Below, one piece after another: positions 40,912 through 48,635 of a stretch of DNA of 64,000 nucleotides. Each line of letters begins with the position of its first letter. Positions within the stretch are counted from its first letter, which is position 1. A program made the position numbers and the translations under genes. Source of the stretch: Cypionkella psychrotolerans (GTDB lineage Bacteria > Pseudomonadota > Alphaproteobacteria > Rhodobacterales > Rhodobacteraceae); the NCBI RefSeq assembly GCF_001294535.1, contig NZ_LGIC01000033.1, forward strand, positions 124,001 through 188,000, written 5' to 3'. The notes under the pieces are model-generated. The model searched no databases and was not told the origin of the DNA. It worked only from the letters and a program-made list of their open reading frames with translations.

Positions 40912-42123
40912 CTAGCGCGCTGGCTGCTGCTGTCCAGCGGTTTGCGGCCAGTGCATCCCGGCGACGGCGGGTAGCATGGTGCCTGAGACCAGCGCCGTCA
41001 GCATCCGGTTGATCGGCCACAGCGTCGCCATTGGGGCCAGCAGGTGATCGCGCAGTAGCGGCAGGGTGGTGCTGGCGGATTGATACATCGGCGTGAAGGC
41101 GGCGGACATGGCTTGATAAGCGCGGACATGCCAGCGGCGCATTTGGGCGTAGCGGGGCAGGGCCTCGCTCAGCGGCAGGCGCAGGGCTTCGCGCAGCGCG
41201 AAGGCATCCAGCAGCGCCATATTGGCCCCTTGGCCAAGTTGAGGGCTGGCGCGGTGGGCGGAATCGCCGATGAACGCCAGCGCTTCGCCGTAGGGGCGGC
41301 GCAGGGTGCCGTGGCTGTAGCGGGCGGGGGTGAGGTCGGCGGGGGAGCGCAGGGTGGTGAGGAACGGGGCCATTTGCGGCCAAAGCTGGGTAACTTCGGC
41401 TTTCCATTGTCTCAGGTCTTGGCTGGGCCAATCGTCCAGCTTGGCGCGGGGCAGTGACCAGAACACGGCGGCATGCGGCGTCGGGTTGCCGGGAAGTTGG
41501 CCGATCGGCAGCACGCCAGCCATGTGGCGGGCGGCTTGGTAGCGTTGCGTCAGCTGATCGCGCGGCAGGTCGGTGTCTGTCGGCCAAGGTACGGTGCCCC
41601 AGACCGCGCCGAAGCTCAGTGGGCGGGCCTGCATCGGCGAGAGTGTCGAGCCCGCACCTGAGGCGTCGATCACCAGATCGAACGGGCCGAGCGGGTCGGC
41701 ATTATCCCGCAGGATCAGGCGTTTGCCTTTGGATAGAGGGGCATCAATGCAGGCCGCACCGGTTTGCAGGGTGATGCCTGCGGCGGTGGCGGCGTGCCAG
41801 AGCAGCGAGAACAGGCTGGCGCGGTGGATGGCAAGGCCGGGGGCATCGGGTTTGTAGGCGACATCGAGGATTTTGCGTTTTCCGGCGTGGCCCAGCATTT
41901 GGGTGATGGATGCTCCGAACGCGCGCGCGTCTGCGCCGATTGTCTCCAGCACCGCAAGGCCTACGGGTTGCAGCACGAGGCCGGAGCCGAGCGGCTGGGG
42001 GGTGGCAAAACGCTCCGCCAGCGTGACGCGGTGGCCGGATTGGGCGCAAAGGGCGGCTGCGGCCAAACCGCCGATGCCTGCGCCGACGATGCCGATGGTT
42101 AGCGGGGGGAATTGGCTGCTCAT
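40912..42123 (-). CDS. FAD-dependent aromatic-type monooxygenase
   Basis: The 403-residue flavoprotein hydroxylase has an N-terminal Rossmann GxGxxG ('IGIVGAGIGGLAAAALCAQSGH'), a central region 'DLVIDASGAGS' and the second FAD motif 'ALAFIGDSAHRASPQLGQGANMALLDAF'. This layout matches class A monooxygenases such as salicylate hydroxylase; the substrate is unknown. It is divergent from the DUF2339 gene. The C terminus is long and hydrophobic-rich, with no clear transmembrane helix. Confidence 0.83.
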   Translation of the reverse strand: MSSQFPPLTIGIVGAGIGGLAAAALCAQSGHRVTLAERFATPQPLGSGLVLQPVGLAVLETIGADARAFGASITQMLGHAGKRKILDVAYKPDAPGLAIHRASLFSLLWHAATAAGITLQTGAACIDAPLSKGKRLILRDNADPLGPFDLVIDASGAGSTLSPMQARPLSFGAVWGTVPWPTDTDLPRDQLTQRYQAARHMAGVLPIGQLPGNPTPHAAVFWSLPRAKLDDWPSQDLRQWKAEVTQLWPQMAPFLTTLRSPADLTPARYSHGTLRRPYGEALAFIGDSAHRASPQLGQGANMALLDAFALREALRLPLSEALPRYAQMRRWHVRAYQAMSAAFTPMYQSASTTLPLLRDHLLAPMATLWPINRMLTALVSGTMLPAVAGMHWPQTAGQQQPAR

Positions 42124-42240
42124 AGCCGCATTTGTGCGGGTTATTTCAGCGGCGGCAAGGCCTTATCGGGTGGGATATTCCCCACTGTGCAGAGCGGTTG
42201 GCTGCGGCTAGTGTACCCCAAAACGTGTGGGAGATCGCGG

Positions 42241-45060
42241 ATGGATGGGTTGCTGGTTCTGCTGGCCTTGGTGGCGCTTGCCATTCCGGTGCTGATCATC
42301 GTGCTGCTGATCGGGCAAAGCGGCTTGCGCAGGCGGGTCGGTGATTTGGAACGGCAGTTGGCTGCGCAAGGTGCTCGGTTGCATGCAATGCTGGGTGCGG
42401 TGGATGTGGCGCAAGCGCCTGTGCCGGACCGGCTTGCCCCCACGGGGGGTGCGGCGACGGTGATAGCTGAGGCGGCGCCAGTTGATTCGGTTCTGAATGA
42501 AGCGGGGCCGGTTGAGGGTGACGCGGCTGCGCCTGTTGTCGAAGCCAAAACTGGCGAGCCTGCGCGTGTGGAAGCTGCGCGACCGATGACGCCGTGGGAG
42601 CGGGCGGCGGCGGCGCGTGGCGCGGCCGCGACACCTGCCGCACCTGCGCCTGTGGCGGCGCGGCTGCCTGCGGGGCCGAGTGTGGTCTCGCGCTTGGCGG
42701 ATTGGTTAAAGGCGAATTGGGTTTACGCGGTGTCTGCCGCCTCGCTGGCGTTGGCGGGGGTCTTTTTCGTGCAATATGGCATTGAAAACGGGCTGTTGCC
42801 GCCGGGGCTGCGCGTGTTGGCGGGGATTGCGTTTGGGCTGTGCCTGATTGCGGCGGGCGAATGGCTGCGGCGCAGGTCTGGTGACGGCGAGGATGTTTCG
42901 ACCGCCTATCTGCCGTCGGTTTTCGCGGGGGCGGGGCTGGTGTCGGTGTTTGCTGCCGTGCTGTCGGCGCGGCTGATGTATGGGTTGATCGGGCCGCAGA
43001 TGGCGTTTGCCGGGTTGGTGGCAACGGCGGTGTTGGCGCTGGTGTTGGGTTGGTTCTATGGGCCGCTGCTGATCGCAGTGGGGCTGTTGGGGGCGTTTGC
43101 CGCACCCTTTGTGGTGGGGGGCGGGGCAGAGGCCGCGCCTTGGCTTTATGGTTATTTCGCTCTGATCGCGGCGTTGGGCTTGGGCGTCGATACGATGCGG
43201 CGCTGGGCTTGGGTTTCCGTGCTGGCGCTGGTGTTGGGCTATGCGGGCGGCTGGCTTTCTATGGCGGCGGGCGCGGGGGTTTTGGGCTGGGTTGCGCTGT
43301 TGCTGGGGCTAGCACTGCTGGCGGTGGCTATTCCTGAGCGCGGCTTGGTGCCCCGGCAAAACGGGCCGTCTGTGCTGCTGGCGGGGATGCTGGGCAAAGT
43401 CAGGCCGCCGTTCCCGGTGCTGCTTGCGGCGGGGGGCGCTTTGGCCTCGACACTGGGGCTGGTGCTGTTGGCGGGGGCTGCGGGGGCCGAGGCGATGCTG
43501 GCATTGGGCGGGCTTGCGCTGTTGGCGCTGGCTTATGTTTTGTGGGCAGAGCGGGCCGAGGGGCTGGCCGATCTGGGCTTTGCCCCGGCGGTGGGGTTCT
43601 GGCTGATGCTGGTGCAGATCGGCTCGGCGCAGATGCCGCTGTTCTGGGAGTTTCTGGACGCGGCGGATCGGGCACCCGAGGTGGCGGCGCCAATGACGAT
43701 CACGCTGCTGGTCGGGATGGCGGCGCTGATCTCGGGCGCGTTTGCGTGGCGATCAAGGCAGGAGGGCGTGTTGGCGCTGCTGCACGGGGCGGCCGCGGCT
43801 TTGGTCGCGCCTGTGGCGGTGGCGATTTTGGCGCTGCTGTGGATACCGGAGCGGGTGATCGGGGCCTATCCTTGGGCGCTGCATGTGATGGCGGTGGCGG
43901 TGGGGATGGTCGGGCTGGCGGTAATGTTCGCGCGCGGGCCGGATCGCCGCCGCCCCGCCTATGCCACGCTGTCGGCGCTGTCGCTGATCGCCTTGGCGCT
44001 GTTCTTGGTCACCACGCATACCGCGCTGACCCTAGCCTTGGCGCTGCTGGCGCTGGTCGCGGCGGGCTTGGATCGGCGGTTCAAGCTGCCGGAAATGGGC
44101 TGGTTCATTCAGGTCGCGGTGGCGGTGTTGGGTTACCGCTTGCTGGCCGATCCGGGGTTGGATTGGGCATTTGAGGCCCCGCTTGGGCAGGTGCTGCTGG
44201 CATTTGTTGGGGTAATCATGGCCCTGCTGGCGGCGTTGCGGACACTGCCAGAGGGGCGGATTCTGCCGAAAGGTGTGCTGGAATCGGCGGCGGCGGGGCT
44301 GGGGGCGATCTTGGCTACCCTATTGATTTCAAGCCTGATTTTGCGCGCCGGTGTGCAGGAGGATGGTGACACATTCTCGCATTGGGGCATGAGCCTGCAA
44401 GCCCTGCCGTGGCTGGTGCTGATGCTGATGCAGATCTATCGGGCGCGGTTGGGTGGGCCGCTTGTGCGCTTGCGTCAAGGCGTTGCGGTGGTCGCAGGCG
44501 GCTTGGCTGCGGCCGGGTTGGCGCTGGCTATCGCCCTTAATCCGATGTTTTTCTACAGCCCAACCACGCCGGGGGCTTTGGTGCTGGGGCCGCGGGTGCT
44601 GGATACGCTACTTCTGGCCTACGGTGTGCCGGGGCTGATGCTGCTGGCGGCGGTGTGGAAGCTGCCGGGGCTGGGGCGGCGCTTGCGGCTGGGGTTCCTT
44701 GTGGTGGGGCTGGCCTTGCTGGCGCTTTATCTTGGGCTGGAGATCCGGCGGTTCTGGCAGGGCGATTGGCTGGGCGCTTCGGGCGTCGTGCAGGGCGAGC
44801 TTTACAGCTACACCCTCGCGCTGATGCTGCTGGGGGCGGGGCTTTTGTATCAGGCGATTGCGCGGCGCTCGGGTCTGCTGCGGCGGGTGGCGATGGCGGT
44901 GATTGGGTTGACGATTGCCAAGGTGTTCCTGCTGGATGCAGCGGGCCTGACGGGCCTGACACGGGTGGTCAGCTTCCTTGGGTTGGGGCTGTGTTTGGCG
45001 GGGCTGGCGTGGCTGAACCGCTGGGCGGGCGAGGTTTCAACGCAGAAGCGGGACGCCTGA
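42241..45060 (+). CDS. DUF2339 large polytopic membrane protein
   Basis: This 939-residue protein has an N-terminal helix, a short coiled segment ('LRRRVGDLERQLAAQGARLHAML') and an Ala/Pro-rich linker to about residue 150. The remainder, over 750 residues, is almost entirely hydrophobic, with some 24 or more helices, as in DUF2339 proteins. Function is unknown; a transport or envelope role is possible. I start at ATG 42241 (GGGAG upstream); the frame extends to 42112 without support. Its 3' end overlaps the converging hemoglobin gene by 24 bases. Confidence 0.87.
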   Translation: MDGLLVLLALVALAIPVLIIVLLIGQSGLRRRVGDLERQLAAQGARLHAMLGAVDVAQAPVPDRLAPTGGAATVIAEAAPVDSVLNEAGPVEGDAAAPVVEAKTGEPARVEAARPMTPWERAAAARGAAATPAAPAPVAARLPAGPSVVSRLADWLKANWVYAVSAASLALAGVFFVQYGIENGLLPPGLRVLAGIAFGLCLIAAGEWLRRRSGDGEDVSTAYLPSVFAGAGLVSVFAAVLSARLMYGLIGPQMAFAGLVATAVLALVLGWFYGPLLIAVGLLGAFAAPFVVGGGAEAAPWLYGYFALIAALGLGVDTMRRWAWVSVLALVLGYAGGWLSMAAGAGVLGWVALLLGLALLAVAIPERGLVPRQNGPSVLLAGMLGKVRPPFPVLLAAGGALASTLGLVLLAGAAGAEAMLALGGLALLALAYVLWAERAEGLADLGFAPAVGFWLMLVQIGSAQMPLFWEFLDAADRAPEVAAPMTITLLVGMAALISGAFAWRSRQEGVLALLHGAAAALVAPVAVAILALLWIPERVIGAYPWALHVMAVAVGMVGLAVMFARGPDRRRPAYATLSALSLIALALFLVTTHTALTLALALLALVAAGLDRRFKLPEMGWFIQVAVAVLGYRLLADPGLDWAFEAPLGQVLLAFVGVIMALLAALRTLPEGRILPKGVLESAAAGLGAILATLLISSLILRAGVQEDGDTFSHWGMSLQALPWLVLMLMQIYRARLGGPLVRLRQGVAVVAGGLAAAGLALAIALNPMFFYSPTTPGALVLGPRVLDTLLLAYGVPGLMLLAAVWKLPGLGRRLRLGFLVVGLALLALYLGLEIRRFWQGDWLGASGVVQGELYSYTLALMLLGAGLLYQAIARRSGLLRRVAMAVIGLTIAKVFLLDAAGLTGLTRVVSFLGLGLCLAGLAWLNRWAGEVSTQKRDA

Positions 45061-45441
45061 GTCGGTCTTGGCGCTATCGACCAGCCCATAGCGCAGGCCC
45101 CGGCCAATGCGATGGGCAAGGGTGGACCATGCTTTGGCGGTTTCGGGCGGCAGTTCGCGCGTAAGGGTGGCATCGAACAGCGCCAGCCAGGGATCAAACA
45201 TGCCGGGGCGGACGTTGCCCGCGGCCTTATGCACGGCCATCGGATTGCCGTCATAGCCGCCCTCTAGCAGAATGGCGTTGCGCCAAAAACGGGCGATTTT
45301 CGCCTCATGTGCCGGCCAGTCGGTGATGTGAGAGGCGAAAACCGGGGCCAAGGTCGGGTGGCTGCGGACGGCTGCATAAAACGCCGATACAACGGCGTCG
45401 ATCTGGGCGGGCGTGATCGGAAAGCGGGCGAGGGGGGACAT
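45037..45441 (-). CDS. group III truncated hemoglobin
   Basis: The 134-residue globin has the B-helix 'VSAFYAAVRSHPTLAPVF', the E-helix 'HEAKIARFWRNAILLEGGYDGNP' and the proximal His in 'PMAVHKAAGN', matching group III truncated hemoglobins. These bind O2 or NO; physiological roles are unsettled. AGGAG lies before the ATG. It overlaps the end of the DUF2339 gene tail to tail. Confidence 0.9.
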   Translation of the reverse strand: MSPLARFPITPAQIDAVVSAFYAAVRSHPTLAPVFASHITDWPAHEAKIARFWRNAILLEGGYDGNPMAVHKAAGNVRPGMFDPWLALFDATLTRELPPETAKAWSTLAHRIGRGLRYGLVDSAKTDSGVPLLR

Positions 45442-45512
45442 ATCAGGCTCCTATCCGTCTAGGGTGCGGGTTTTCCCGGCGCGCTGCAACAGGGCGCGCT
45501 GACGCAGGGGCT

Positions 45513-45541
45513 TTGACCTTTCCGCGCGAGGTTTCTATAAG
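45513..45541 (+). promoter_or_regulatory. strong promoter of the ileS leader
   Basis: TTGACC (45513-45518) and TATAAG (45536-45541) are separated by exactly 17 bases, close to sigma-70 consensus and the best promoter seen in the window. The predicted start, about seven bases after the -10 box, falls at 45548, the A of the leader-peptide ATG. Confidence 0.7.
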
Positions 45542-45547
45542 GCCCGC

Positions 45548-45598
45548 ATGGACCGCATATTCGTGAGCATAATCCGAATTATCGGCCCGGCGCTCTGA
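45548..45598 (+). CDS. candidate isoleucine-rich leader peptide of ileS (ileL-like)
   Basis: The ORF encodes MDRIFVSIIRIIGPAL and a stop: 16 residues with five Ile, two of them ATA codons, which are rare in this genome. The predicted transcription start coincides with its ATG, so it would be translated leaderless. It lies 94 bases upstream of ileS, and its last codons and stop fall inside a strong hairpin. Position and composition fit ribosome-mediated control by charged tRNA-Ile. There is no experimental evidence; a random short ORF is possible but unlikely. Confidence 0.55.
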   Translation: MDRIFVSIIRIIGPAL

Positions 45599-45614
45599 CG
45601 TTTCAGACGCCGGG
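45586..45614 (+). promoter_or_regulatory. leader hairpin overlapping the ileS leader-peptide stop
   Basis: CCCGGCG pairs with CGCCGGG and TCTGA with TCAGA, with one bulged C and a CGTT loop, giving a 12-bp stem. The leader-peptide TGA lies in its 5' arm, so a ribosome stalled earlier or terminating there would affect folding. ATTCT follows rather than a T-run, so it is not a standard terminator. Downstream CCTT/AAGG pairs (45647-45683) could involve the ileS Shine-Dalgarno AAGGA. Confidence 0.45.
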
Positions 45615-45692
45615 ATTCTGGTGCATTGCACCCCTCCGATACCCTCCTTCCTAAGGCCTGCGACCAAGGCCCACCTTCCAAGGACTGCCGCG

Positions 45693-48635
45693 ATGTGCGC
45701 TGATACGACTGACTATTCCAACACCGTTTTTCTGCCCGAAACCGATTTCCCGATGCGGGCGGGCCTGCCTGCCCGCGAGCCTGATTGGCTGGCGCGTTGG
45801 GAGAAGATAGGGGTTTACGACCGCCTGCGCGAAAAGGCCGTGGCGGATGCCCGCACGCCGTTCACCCTGCATGACGGCCCGCCCTACGCCAACGGCCATC
45901 TGCACATCGGCCATGCGCTGAACAAAATCCTGAAGGATATGGTGGTGCGCTCGCAGCAGATGATGGGCAAAGACGCCCGTTATGTGCCGGGTTGGGATTG
46001 CCACGGCCTGCCGATTGAGTGGAAGATCGAAGAACAATACCGCGCCAAGGGTCTGAACAAGGACGACGTGGATGTGGTGGCCTTCCGTCAGGAATGCCGC
46101 AAGTTTGCCGAGGGCTGGATCGACGTGCAACGCTCGGAATTCAAGCGGCTGGGCGTGACGGGGAAGTGGGAAAAGCCATATCTCACGATGGATTACCACG
46201 CCGAGGCGGTGATCGCGGATGAGTTTATGAAATTCGTGAGCAACGGGTCTTTGTATCAGGGGTCGAAGCCTGTGATGTGGTCGCCAGTGGAGAAAACGGC
46301 CTTGGCCGAGGCGGAGATCGAGTATCACGATCATACCAGCCACACGATCTGGGTGCGGTTTAAGCCGCATTCAGTTCCACAGCACAATGACACCGACTTG
46401 CGGACGCACGAAGATTTGCGTCAGGCATCTGTCGTGATCTGGACGACGACTCCTTGGACCATCCCTCAGAACCGGGCTATCGCGTTTAATCCTACCATTC
46501 AATATGGCCTTTACGAGGTTGCCGAAGTTGCCGAAAACTCGACGGCCAAAGCTGGAGAACTTTTAGTTCTCGCAAATAAACTTGCTGAAGGCGTGATGTC
46601 GGCTGCAAAAGTTACGCAATTTGTTAAGCGTCGGGACGTTCCAGCAGTTCAATTGGAGCAGATGGACTTTGCCCATCCCTATCGCGGCATTGAAGGCGGA
46701 GATAGCGAGTGGGATTATAATGTCCCGATGATCGCTGGCGATCATGTCACTGACGACGCAGGCACGGGCTTTGTTCACACCGCCCCCAGCCACGGCGATG
46801 ACGACTATCAGATGGGCCTCAAGTTCCAGCTGCCGATGACCTATAACGTCGAAGCCGATGGATCATATCGCGCCGATCTGCCGCTGTTCGGCGGCCAGTT
46901 CATCATCAATGCCGAGGGCAAAGAGGGTGCGGCCAACGTCAGCAATATCAAGGCCCTGCACGCGCAAGGGGCGCTGCTGGCCAAGGGTAAGGTCAAGCAC
47001 TCCTACCCGCATTCCTGGCGATCGAAGGCTCCGGTGATCTACCGCAACACGCCGCAGTGGTTTGTTGCCATCGACAAGCCGCTCGACGATGGCATGTCGA
47101 CCTATGGCGAGACGATCCGCCAGCGCGCGCTGAATTCCATCAACCAACTGGTGACTTGGACGCCGATTGCGGGGCGCAACCGGCTGCATTCGATGATCGA
47201 AGCGCGGCCGGATTGGGTTCTCAGCCGTCAACGCGCTTGGGGTGTGCCGCTGACTTGTTTCACCAAAGTGGGTGCGAAGCCGACCGATGCGGACTTCCTG
47301 TTGCGCAACCAAGACGTGAATGCGCGGATCAAGGAAGCGTTCGAGGCTGAAGGCGCGGATGTTTGGTATGTGCAAGGATTCAAGGAAAAGATGCTGCATG
47401 GCATCGTTGATCCGTCGCAATATAACCAAGTCTTCGACGTGCTGGACGTGTGGTTTGATAGCGGCTCGACCCATGCTTTCGTGCTGCGCGACCGCGAGGA
47501 TGGCAGCAGCGACGGCATTGCCGATCTTTACTTGGAAGGCACCGACCAGCATCGCGGCTGGTTCCATAGCTCGATGCTGCAAGCCTGTGGCACCAAGGGC
47601 CGCGCGCCGTATCGCGGCGTGCTGACGCATGGGTTCACGCTGGACGAGAAGGGCATGAAAATGTCCAAATCGGTCGGCAATACCGTCGCCCCGCAAGCGG
47701 TAATTGATGAGTATGGCGCGGATATTCTGCGGCTTTGGGTGGCGTTGTCGGATTACACCGTCGATCTGCGCATCGGCAAGGAAATCCTGAAAGGCGTCGC
47801 CGACAGTTATCGCCGTTTGCGCAATACGATGCGGTTTTTGCTGGGGAATTTGGCGGGGTTTAGCGAGGCAGAAAAGGTCGCCCATGCCGATATGCCAGAA
47901 CTGGAGCAGTGGGTTTTGCACCGTCTGGCGGAACTTGACGCCGAGGTGCGGGCCGGTTATGCGCGCTACGATTTCCAAGGCGTGTTCCAGAAACTGTTCA
48001 CCTTTGCCACCACCGATCTGTCGGCGATCTACTTCGATATCCGCAAGGATTGCCTGTATTGCGACCCGGCAGACAGCCAACGCCGCCGCGCCGCGCGCAC
48101 GGTGTTGGACATCGTGTTCCACCGTTTGACCACTTGGCTCGCCCCAGTGCTGGTGTTCACGATGGAGGAGGTTTGGCTGTGCCGCTTCCCCAGTGAGGAC
48201 TCGTCGGTGCATCTGGTCGATATGTCGGAAACCCCTGCGGAGTGGTTGAACCCTGACTTGGGTGCCATGATGGATTATAAGCGCTTGGTCCGAAAAGATG
48301 TGACAGAGGCTATTGAAGTTTATCGCGTCAAGAAGGAAATTGGGTCTAGTCTTGAGGCTAGTCCGATTGTCTATTTTGCTGGTGACTCAGCTATGCCGGA
48401 TCAGTTTGGTGGTCTTGAGGCGTTTGGCAAAGACTTTGCGGAATTCTGCATTACTTCAGGAATTGAACTGAAGATTGGACAGCCGCCGGGTGTCGAATAC
48501 GCAGGAATGGCCCGATACATACAGTACCGCGCCGCTCCCGGTGAGAAATGTCAACGTTGCTGGCGGATTTTGCCAGACGTGGGCAGCCACAAACACCCCG
48601 GCACCTGCAAACGGTGCAACGACGCGCTGGGCTAA
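45693..48635 (+). CDS. ileS: isoleucyl-tRNA synthetase
   Basis: The 980-residue class Ia enzyme has HIGH (residues 71-74), 'WDCHGLPIEWKIE', the CP1 editing domain with 'TTTPWTIP' near residue 253, 'VDVWFDSGSTHAFVL' and KMSKS near 656-660. An anticodon-binding domain and a C-terminal zinc module with CxxC pairs ('CQRCW...CKRC') follow. The ATG at 45693 has AAGGA at eight bases. Two internal stretches (about 46485-46652 and 48291-48521) use far more A/T-ending codons than the rest, hinting at recombination. Expression is probably controlled by the upstream leader. Confidence 0.96.
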   Translation: MCADTTDYSNTVFLPETDFPMRAGLPAREPDWLARWEKIGVYDRLREKAVADARTPFTLHDGPPYANGHLHIGHALNKILKDMVVRSQQMMGKDARYVPGWDCHGLPIEWKIEEQYRAKGLNKDDVDVVAFRQECRKFAEGWIDVQRSEFKRLGVTGKWEKPYLTMDYHAEAVIADEFMKFVSNGSLYQGSKPVMWSPVEKTALAEAEIEYHDHTSHTIWVRFKPHSVPQHNDTDLRTHEDLRQASVVIWTTTPWTIPQNRAIAFNPTIQYGLYEVAEVAENSTAKAGELLVLANKLAEGVMSAAKVTQFVKRRDVPAVQLEQMDFAHPYRGIEGGDSEWDYNVPMIAGDHVTDDAGTGFVHTAPSHGDDDYQMGLKFQLPMTYNVEADGSYRADLPLFGGQFIINAEGKEGAANVSNIKALHAQGALLAKGKVKHSYPHSWRSKAPVIYRNTPQWFVAIDKPLDDGMSTYGETIRQRALNSINQLVTWTPIAGRNRLHSMIEARPDWVLSRQRAWGVPLTCFTKVGAKPTDADFLLRNQDVNARIKEAFEAEGADVWYVQGFKEKMLHGIVDPSQYNQVFDVLDVWFDSGSTHAFVLRDREDGSSDGIADLYLEGTDQHRGWFHSSMLQACGTKGRAPYRGVLTHGFTLDEKGMKMSKSVGNTVAPQAVIDEYGADILRLWVALSDYTVDLRIGKEILKGVADSYRRLRNTMRFLLGNLAGFSEAEKVAHADMPELEQWVLHRLAELDAEVRAGYARYDFQGVFQKLFTFATTDLSAIYFDIRKDCLYCDPADSQRRRAARTVLDIVFHRLTTWLAPVLVFTMEEVWLCRFPSEDSSVHLVDMSETPAEWLNPDLGAMMDYKRLVRKDVTEAIEVYRVKKEIGSSLEASPIVYFAGDSAMPDQFGGLEAFGKDFAEFCITSGIELKIGQPPGVEYAGMARYIQYRAAPGEKCQRCWRILPDVGSHKHPGTCKRCNDALG

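Follow-up and report, generated by a model that had tools for sequence, protein, structure and literature searches.

A candidate isoleucine-sensing leader upstream of ileS in Cypionkella psychrotolerans and other alphaproteobacteria

The isoleucyl-tRNA synthetase gene (ileS) of C. psychrotolerans is preceded by a short isoleucine-rich ORF with its own predicted promoter and by two predicted hairpins (Table 1). The locus lies within the stretch of 64,000 nucleotides that was analyzed, called the window here. The ileS start was placed where the protein conserved in relatives begins, and the frame stays open further 5'. The isoleucine codons of the leader ORF are, in order, ATA, ATA, ATC, ATT, and ATC. 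The first hairpin, H1, pairs CCCGGCG-(C)-TCTGA with TCAGA-CGCCGGG, giving 12 base pairs with one bulged C, and its 5' arm contains the leader stop codon. A 16-codon isoleucine-rich ORF, a promoter, and a 12-bp hairpin with the stop inside it had been proposed from a first inspection of the sequence (the original prediction), and all of them were confirmed on rereading. Further upstream is a gene for a DUF2339 predicted membrane protein (42112-45060, + strand). A divergent ORF (45037-45441, - strand) adjoins the leader promoter and looks by eye like a truncated haemoglobin; its Pfam globin matches are weak and below the cut-off (E 0.01-0.05).

Table 1. Features of the ileS leader region, in coordinates of the window
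Feature	Coordinates	Strand	Remarks
-35 element TTGACC	45513..45518	+	read from the sequence
-10 element TATAAG	45536..45541	+	read from the sequence; 17-nt spacer from the -35 element
Leader ORF MDRIFVSIIRIIGPAL and stop	45548..45598	+	16 codons; probably leaderless, transcription start predicted at the A of the ATG
Core CGA-AUU-A (in frame, Arg-Ile-)	45575..45581	+	peptide-chosen loci (see text)
Hairpin H1	45586..45614	+	opens 11 nt past the C of CGA; holds the leader stop codon
Hairpin H2, GGTGC ATT GCACC	45620..45632	+	short; absent from the original prediction
C-rich, G-poor stretch, H2 to Shine-Dalgarno	45633..45679	+	possible Rho loading region
ileS Shine-Dalgarno AAGGA	45680..45684	+	8 nt before the ileS ATG
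ileS, isoleucyl-tRNA synthetase	45693..48635	+	Pfam tRNA-synt_1, Anticodon_1, zf-FPG_IleRS

The position of the promoter suggests that the leader ORF is probably leaderless, with transcription beginning at or beside its AUG. The -10 element keeps its distance to the ATG in relatives: the distance from its end to the ATG is 6 nt here, 5-10 nt in all 54 Rhodobacterales loci measured, and 6-7 nt in 43 of them. The TATA of the -10 element is invariant in 48 aligned relatives. The best hexamer 16-19 nt 5' of the -10 element fits TTGACA at four or five of the six positions in 51 of the 54 Rhodobacterales loci. A -10 element scoring at least 4/6 lies 4-11 nt before the ATG at 78 of 97 ileS sites, compared with about 10.5 in shuffles. 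The same is true of 14 of 33 sites located before genes for a small ACT-fold protein (about 3.1 in shuffles), which are described below. A generic promoter scan does not list the leader promoter, and its rule demands T as the last base of the -10 element, which is G here.

The reading frame of the leader is maintained among relatives, and it is enriched in isoleucine codons. Before the most conserved sequence of the leader, the core CGA-AUU-A, an in-frame ATG is found within 22 codons at 102 of the 103 ileS-class sites, versus 8 and 12 for the other two frames; the 103 were picked by DNA pattern and include two sites inside ileS (L081 and L204) that are chance matches. At the ACT sites the corresponding counts are 34 of 35, with 1 and 2 in the other frames. 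The length from ATG to CGA takes 13 values among the 98 ileS sites with H1, all of them whole codons, and in 92 of these sites the distance from CGA to the stop codon is 7, 8, or 10 codons. Between the outermost in-frame ATG and the core, 102 of 437 codons (23.3%) in 54 Rhodobacterales leaders are isoleucine codons, versus 32 of 766 (4.2%) in the other frames. The 43 leaders from other orders have 54 of 501 (10.8%), versus 34 of 916 (3.7%) in the other frames, and ACT leaders are also enriched (36 of 330 codons, 0.109 versus 0.029). The rare codon ATA makes up 26 of the 102 isoleucine codons in Rhodobacterales leaders, versus 15 of 717 in 30 mechanically chosen ORFs of the window. It had been predicted that relatives would keep a short isoleucine-rich ORF despite drift in other codons, and they do. 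The in-frame enrichment holds overall, but it is not universal: isoleucine codons are wholly absent between ATG and core in 8 of the 54 distinct Rhodobacterales leaders. Sites before neither ileS nor ACT genes have no enrichment (4 of 103 codons in 10 leaders, a few of which are likely to be chance matches). Judging from these alignments, the universal part of the element is CGA-AUU-A plus H1, not richness in isoleucine.

Among the aligned loci, the most conserved part of the element is a pair of in-frame codons, CGA and AUU, with invariant third positions and an A directly after them; H1 begins 11 nt from the C of CGA. This feature was missed by the original prediction. The conservation was measured in 110 ileS-bearing loci, consisting of 30 relatives and 80 further records. 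A peptide search of the region 60-190 nt before ileS found the frame R-[IV]-x-x-P-[ATV]...stop in 79 of the 110. Three loci were removed before codons were counted: L086 is spurious and lacks CGA-ATT, L017 has the core with AAA as the next codon, and L054 has CGA-ATT followed by C. In the 74 distinct loci that were left, CGA is present in 73, and ATT, the following A, and the C that opens H1 are present in all 74. Because the peptide pattern itself fixes the spacing, a free test was run on the 450 nt before ileS in the 110 loci. CCC[GA][GA] was found within 0-15 nt of CGAATTA in 77 of 77 cases, and the gap is 10 nt in one case and 4 nt in the other 76; CGAATTA is absent from these 450 nt in the other 33 loci. 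A larger set of 169 sites was picked by DNA pattern, and so invariance is claimed from the 74 peptide-chosen loci only and spacing from the free test.

A scan of 101 genomes gave 69 occurrences of CGAATTA-N4-CCCGGC, a single one of them in C. psychrotolerans, against two of a reversed control pattern, so the core is not a chance sequence. If any codon is permitted after CGA, there are 45 matches in 41 genomes; ATT accounts for 19 of them, and every other codon for three or fewer. The possibility that the same device serves other amino acids was rejected, as the reversed control gave 13 matches and the non-ATT matches therefore look like chance. CGA is rare, with 23 of the 789 arginine codons in the window. 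Among 44 tRNA places in the draft genome, there is no tRNA-Arg with anticodon TCG, and the draft also has no tRNA-Ile GAU. The tRNA-Arg anticodons are CCT, CCG, ACG, and TCT; the ACG tRNA, through inosine, is the probable reader of CGA. The first pair of H1 is 11 nt from CGA, and with CGA in the P site of the ribosome this pair would lie approximately at the mRNA entry.

The distribution of the element before ileS extends over several alphaproteobacterial orders. Among the 80 further records, assigned to groups by their titles, the frame is present in 26 of 26 Rhodobacterales (L054 is a variant) and in 22 of 54 others, excluding the spurious L086; it was found in none of 12 sphingomonad-type loci. 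In the family to which C. psychrotolerans belongs, 61 genomes were sampled, 57 of which have a clear ileS, and the element is present in 53 of these 57. CGAATTA-N4-CCCGGC lies 72-202 nt from the ileS match in 48 genomes, and five more carry the core with a changed stem (L009, L011, L012, L023, L258). No element was found in the four remaining ileS-bearing genomes (G028, G043, G044, G047). Second copies of the core are located away from ileS in two places in the family (G024:C9:68571 and G019:C4:343159), where the hairpin is short and of the CCCGGCCTGA type. A sample of 289 genomes from the class, 247 of which gave an ileS match (E up to 1e-35), was searched for the core with CCCGGY. By coordinates, 49 genomes have the core on the ileS strand and upstream of the gene, at a distance of 49-249 nt in 45, 371-483 nt in three, and a doubtful 1214 nt in one. 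There are 63 matches away from ileS and 16 for which the place of ileS is not listed, and only part of these were fetched. Four of the 16 precede ileS (L152, L153, L207, L208), giving at least 53 of the 289 genomes, one doubtful, with the core before ileS. Several of the fetched matches sit in coding sequence or lack a leader and look like chance. In a sample of 90 genomes from the phylum, a match is present in 11 of 23 alphaproteobacteria and in 2 of 67 others, where the reversed control matched 3 of the 67.

The same core is found before genes other than ileS, as identified by a model search and the DNA pattern. A small protein with an ACT fold follows 35 distinct core sites (L117, L121, L122, L126, L132, L133, and L135 are examples). 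In sequence comparisons, 5 of 20 members match the acetolactate synthase small subunit, with a best E of 0.0005, below the cut-off. Against PDB sequences the top match is a leucine-rich-repeat protein (0.0045), followed by acetolactate synthase small subunits (0.33 and 0.78). In the predicted structure (mean pLDDT 91.5), strands and helices follow one another as in an ACT fold. Among PDB structures this model matches valine-bound IlvN best (E 9.6e-6), and other ACT and PII-like folds score only slightly worse. By predicted fold, this is a family of ACT proteins resembling IlvN. The gene order at L147 and L148 is core, ACT, ileS, while at L122 ilvA follows the ACT gene. At L171 the core is just before a threonine ammonia-lyase gene, with a second copy about 200 nt upstream, and at L190 two tandem cores about 200 nt apart precede an ACT gene. 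One genome (G111) has the core at three genes: ileS, an ACT gene, and a threonine ammonia-lyase. Five sites precede an AAA_33 protein (L120, L123, L127, L184, L202; Pfam was run on L120, L184, and L202), and the leader stop codon is just within H1 at these sites. Three others precede an NTF2-like protein (L134, L156, L157); two of these, L134 and L157, have a DUF6841 match that is weak and does not reach the cut-off.

The group holding the AAA_33 and NTF2-like sites has no isoleucine enrichment, and the core is invariant down to the third base. Both observations would fit a constitutive arrest peptide or a binding motif that is not specific for isoleucine, with the exit tunnel or some protein recognizing R-I-x-x-P-A or CGAAUUA plus H1. 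However, the reading frame is strict at many different lengths, isoleucine is enriched in frame at ileS and ACT sites, and the targets are ileS, ilvA, and IlvN-like genes. Synonymous codons would also be tolerated if the signal were in the peptide only. An isoleucine-independent motif is thus improbable. The invariant third positions could nevertheless be an RNA signal unrelated to isoleucine decoding.

The original prediction looked to covariation in the stem for support, and this was found for H1; H2 covaries too. An alignment of 25 sequences has 96.0% of H1 and H2 cells paired, with both sides altered in 5 of the 15 pairs. Four of five covariation measures are above all 500 shuffles, and the fifth was equalled by 8 shuffles. 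As many as 5 doubly altered pairs also arise when the structure is slid by -2 columns, but with 6 cells rather than 14 and 41.7% rather than 96.0% paired. For H1 at 97 distinct sites, taking only sites where it is predicted to fold, 638 of 679 cells are paired (the maximum of 1000 shuffles is 610) and 47 cells are doubly changed (maximum 26). The sequences are related, so the shuffles overstate the significance of the covariation.

Two hairpins in series are also what a transcription attenuator of the trp type would have. A 2:3 antiterminator would then be the competitor of H1 (1:2) and H2 (3:4), one or other of which would act as an intrinsic terminator. The Caulobacter ilvBN leader is described as such in the accessible portion of one paper (PMC4117421). 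The CGCC/GGCG pairing between the 3' arm of H1 and H2 is possible in 95% of cells, but it has no covariation beyond shuffles, and folding with the 5' arm of H1 blocked predicts it for 3 of 52 sequences. Close relatives such as L002, L003, L005, and L006 have AUUUU after H1, yet four or more T occur in the 8 nt after H1 in just 7 of 55 Rhodobacterales and 9 of 43 other ileS sites, a count that covers these 8 nt and not the tail of H2. An intrinsic terminator was rejected for want of a consistent U-run after H1. Attenuation of the trp type therefore seems quite unlikely.

It had also been suggested that CCTT/AAGG pairs near the Shine-Dalgarno sequence offer an alternative fold. This part of the original prediction is not supported. 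Blocking the 5' arm of H1 in 52 sequences barely shifts the mean predicted accessibility of the Shine-Dalgarno sequence (0.445 versus 0.460), which rises by more than 0.1 in 9 and falls by more than 0.1 in 4. This near-unchanged accessibility lends no support to a translational switch that sequesters the Shine-Dalgarno sequence. The same result argues against purely translational control by an upstream ORF, in which leader translation would occlude downstream initiation or be coupled to it. In addition, the distance of 49-249 nt between core and ileS in 45 of the 49 class genomes means that the leader does not overlap ileS there. The ACT class is different: with start codons set by rule, 21 of 36 rows have a leader that continues through H1 and ends past the presumed start codon of the ACT gene, overlapping it by 14-74 nt. 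As an account of the element, purely translational control appears unlikely. The apparent overlap of leader and gene start at many ACT genes points to translational control there, and translational control or interference is our best guess for the ACT genes with overlapping leaders.

For ileS, the best guess for the readout is premature termination of the Rho type, controlled by the ribosome, in the C-rich and G-poor stretch after H2. The mean composition of this stretch in 44 relatives is 0.355 C and 0.158 G, versus 0.329 and 0.258 in control regions before 23 ORFs of the window. This composition would suit Rho and is weakly suggestive of it.

Overall the comparison of genomes shows a conserved leader ORF kept in frame, in-frame isoleucine enrichment with rare ATA codons, an invariant CGA-AUU-A core at constant spacing from a covarying hairpin, and a conserved promoter beside the ATG, together with an association of the core with ileS, ilvA, and IlvN-like ACT proteins. 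At the level of sequence, the constant frame, the enrichment in cognate codons, and a conserved hairpin overlapping the end of the ORF support control by a leader peptide, as first proposed. It is likely that the element is a cis-acting isoleucine sensor that is read by the ribosome and controls ileS. Transcription would begin at or beside the AUG of the 16-codon leader, and a ribosome would translate the leader while ileS transcription is under way. With charged tRNA-Ile in short supply, the ribosome would stall at isoleucine codons, chiefly the AUU right after the rare CGA, and a stall at this AUU would put H1 at the mouth of the ribosome. Stalling there and running into H1 to end at its stop codon would lead to different fates of the RNA before ileS, so that low charged Ile-tRNA would cause IleRS to rise. 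Translation of the leader in this species, stalling, the direction of the response, and the readout are what we infer from this arrangement.

A broader and more tentative proposal is that the element may be a class-wide sensor of isoleucine charging based on a single codon. CGA read by inosine in the P site, AUU read by wobble in the A site, and a hairpin 11 nt from CGA would together set up a stall in advance, to be resolved only by well-charged tRNA-Ile. The isoleucine regulon would then include ileS, ilvA, and the IlvN-like ACT, AAA_33 kinase, and NTF2-like families. We consider this possible, but short of probable.

To our knowledge, little is known about the control of ileS in Gram-negative bacteria. 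In Gram-positives, the T-box riboswitch controls ileS by tRNA charging. Unlike the ileS element described here, the T-box works without an ORF, and a search of 44500-46500 at E up to 1 matched neither a T-box nor any other Rfam 15 family. Proteobacteria do have leader-peptide control of synthetase genes; the E. coli pheST leader is similar to the ileS element in this respect but uses Phe codons and an intrinsic terminator.

Leader-peptide control is itself classical, and the accessible parts of earlier papers name the ilv operons and treat the choice of control codons (PMC1183508) and describe uORF motifs associated with ilvB, including the Corynebacterium ilvB-II motif (PMC10272879). As described in these parts, the Ile/Val/Leu attenuators (enteric ilvGMEDA and ilvBN, PMC1183508; Caulobacter ilvBN, PMC4117421; ilvB-II, PMC10272879) share with the ileS element a short ORF rich in cognate codons and an RNA structure before a gene for the same amino acid. 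The ileS element differs from them in having a synthetase as its target, a fixed CGA-AUU pair at a constant distance from a hairpin, no consistent U-run, and a probably leaderless start. A leaderless leader-peptide ORF is also known from the alphaproteobacterium S. meliloti, according to the accessible part of one report (PMC10117765); that leader, trpL (rnTrpL), is a tryptophan attenuator and differs from the ileS leader in responding to Trp and in also being a small RNA.

The original prediction knew of no established case for ileS in this group, a statement that calls for some qualification. In the accessible portion of a ribosome profiling study of Caulobacter (Schrader et al. 2014, PMC4117421), an 'ileS leader CDS (CCNA_03934)' and a trpS leader CDS are named, and to that extent an ileS leader is already on record. 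As in C. psychrotolerans, these are small coding sequences before a synthetase gene in an alphaproteobacterium (C. crescentus). CCNA_03934 served there as a plasmid-expressed negative control, and that portion of the paper gives its name without sequence, mechanism, or conservation and reports no measurement of its regulation. As a named feature, the Caulobacter leader counts as independent support for a leader at ileS (PMC4117421). A literature search with many subscription papers and all supplements outside its scope found no paper describing a class-wide element with a fixed codon pair and gene set.

The element probably allows the ribosome to sense isoleucine shortage and adjust ileS. It is a concrete element that can be tested in several alphaproteobacterial orders, and in the absence of an Rfam match at the locus it could become a new family. 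It ties ileS, ilvA, and an uncharacterised family of ACT proteins to one signal. It also appears to be a natural example of sensing by a fixed codon pair, and not just by a series of control codons.
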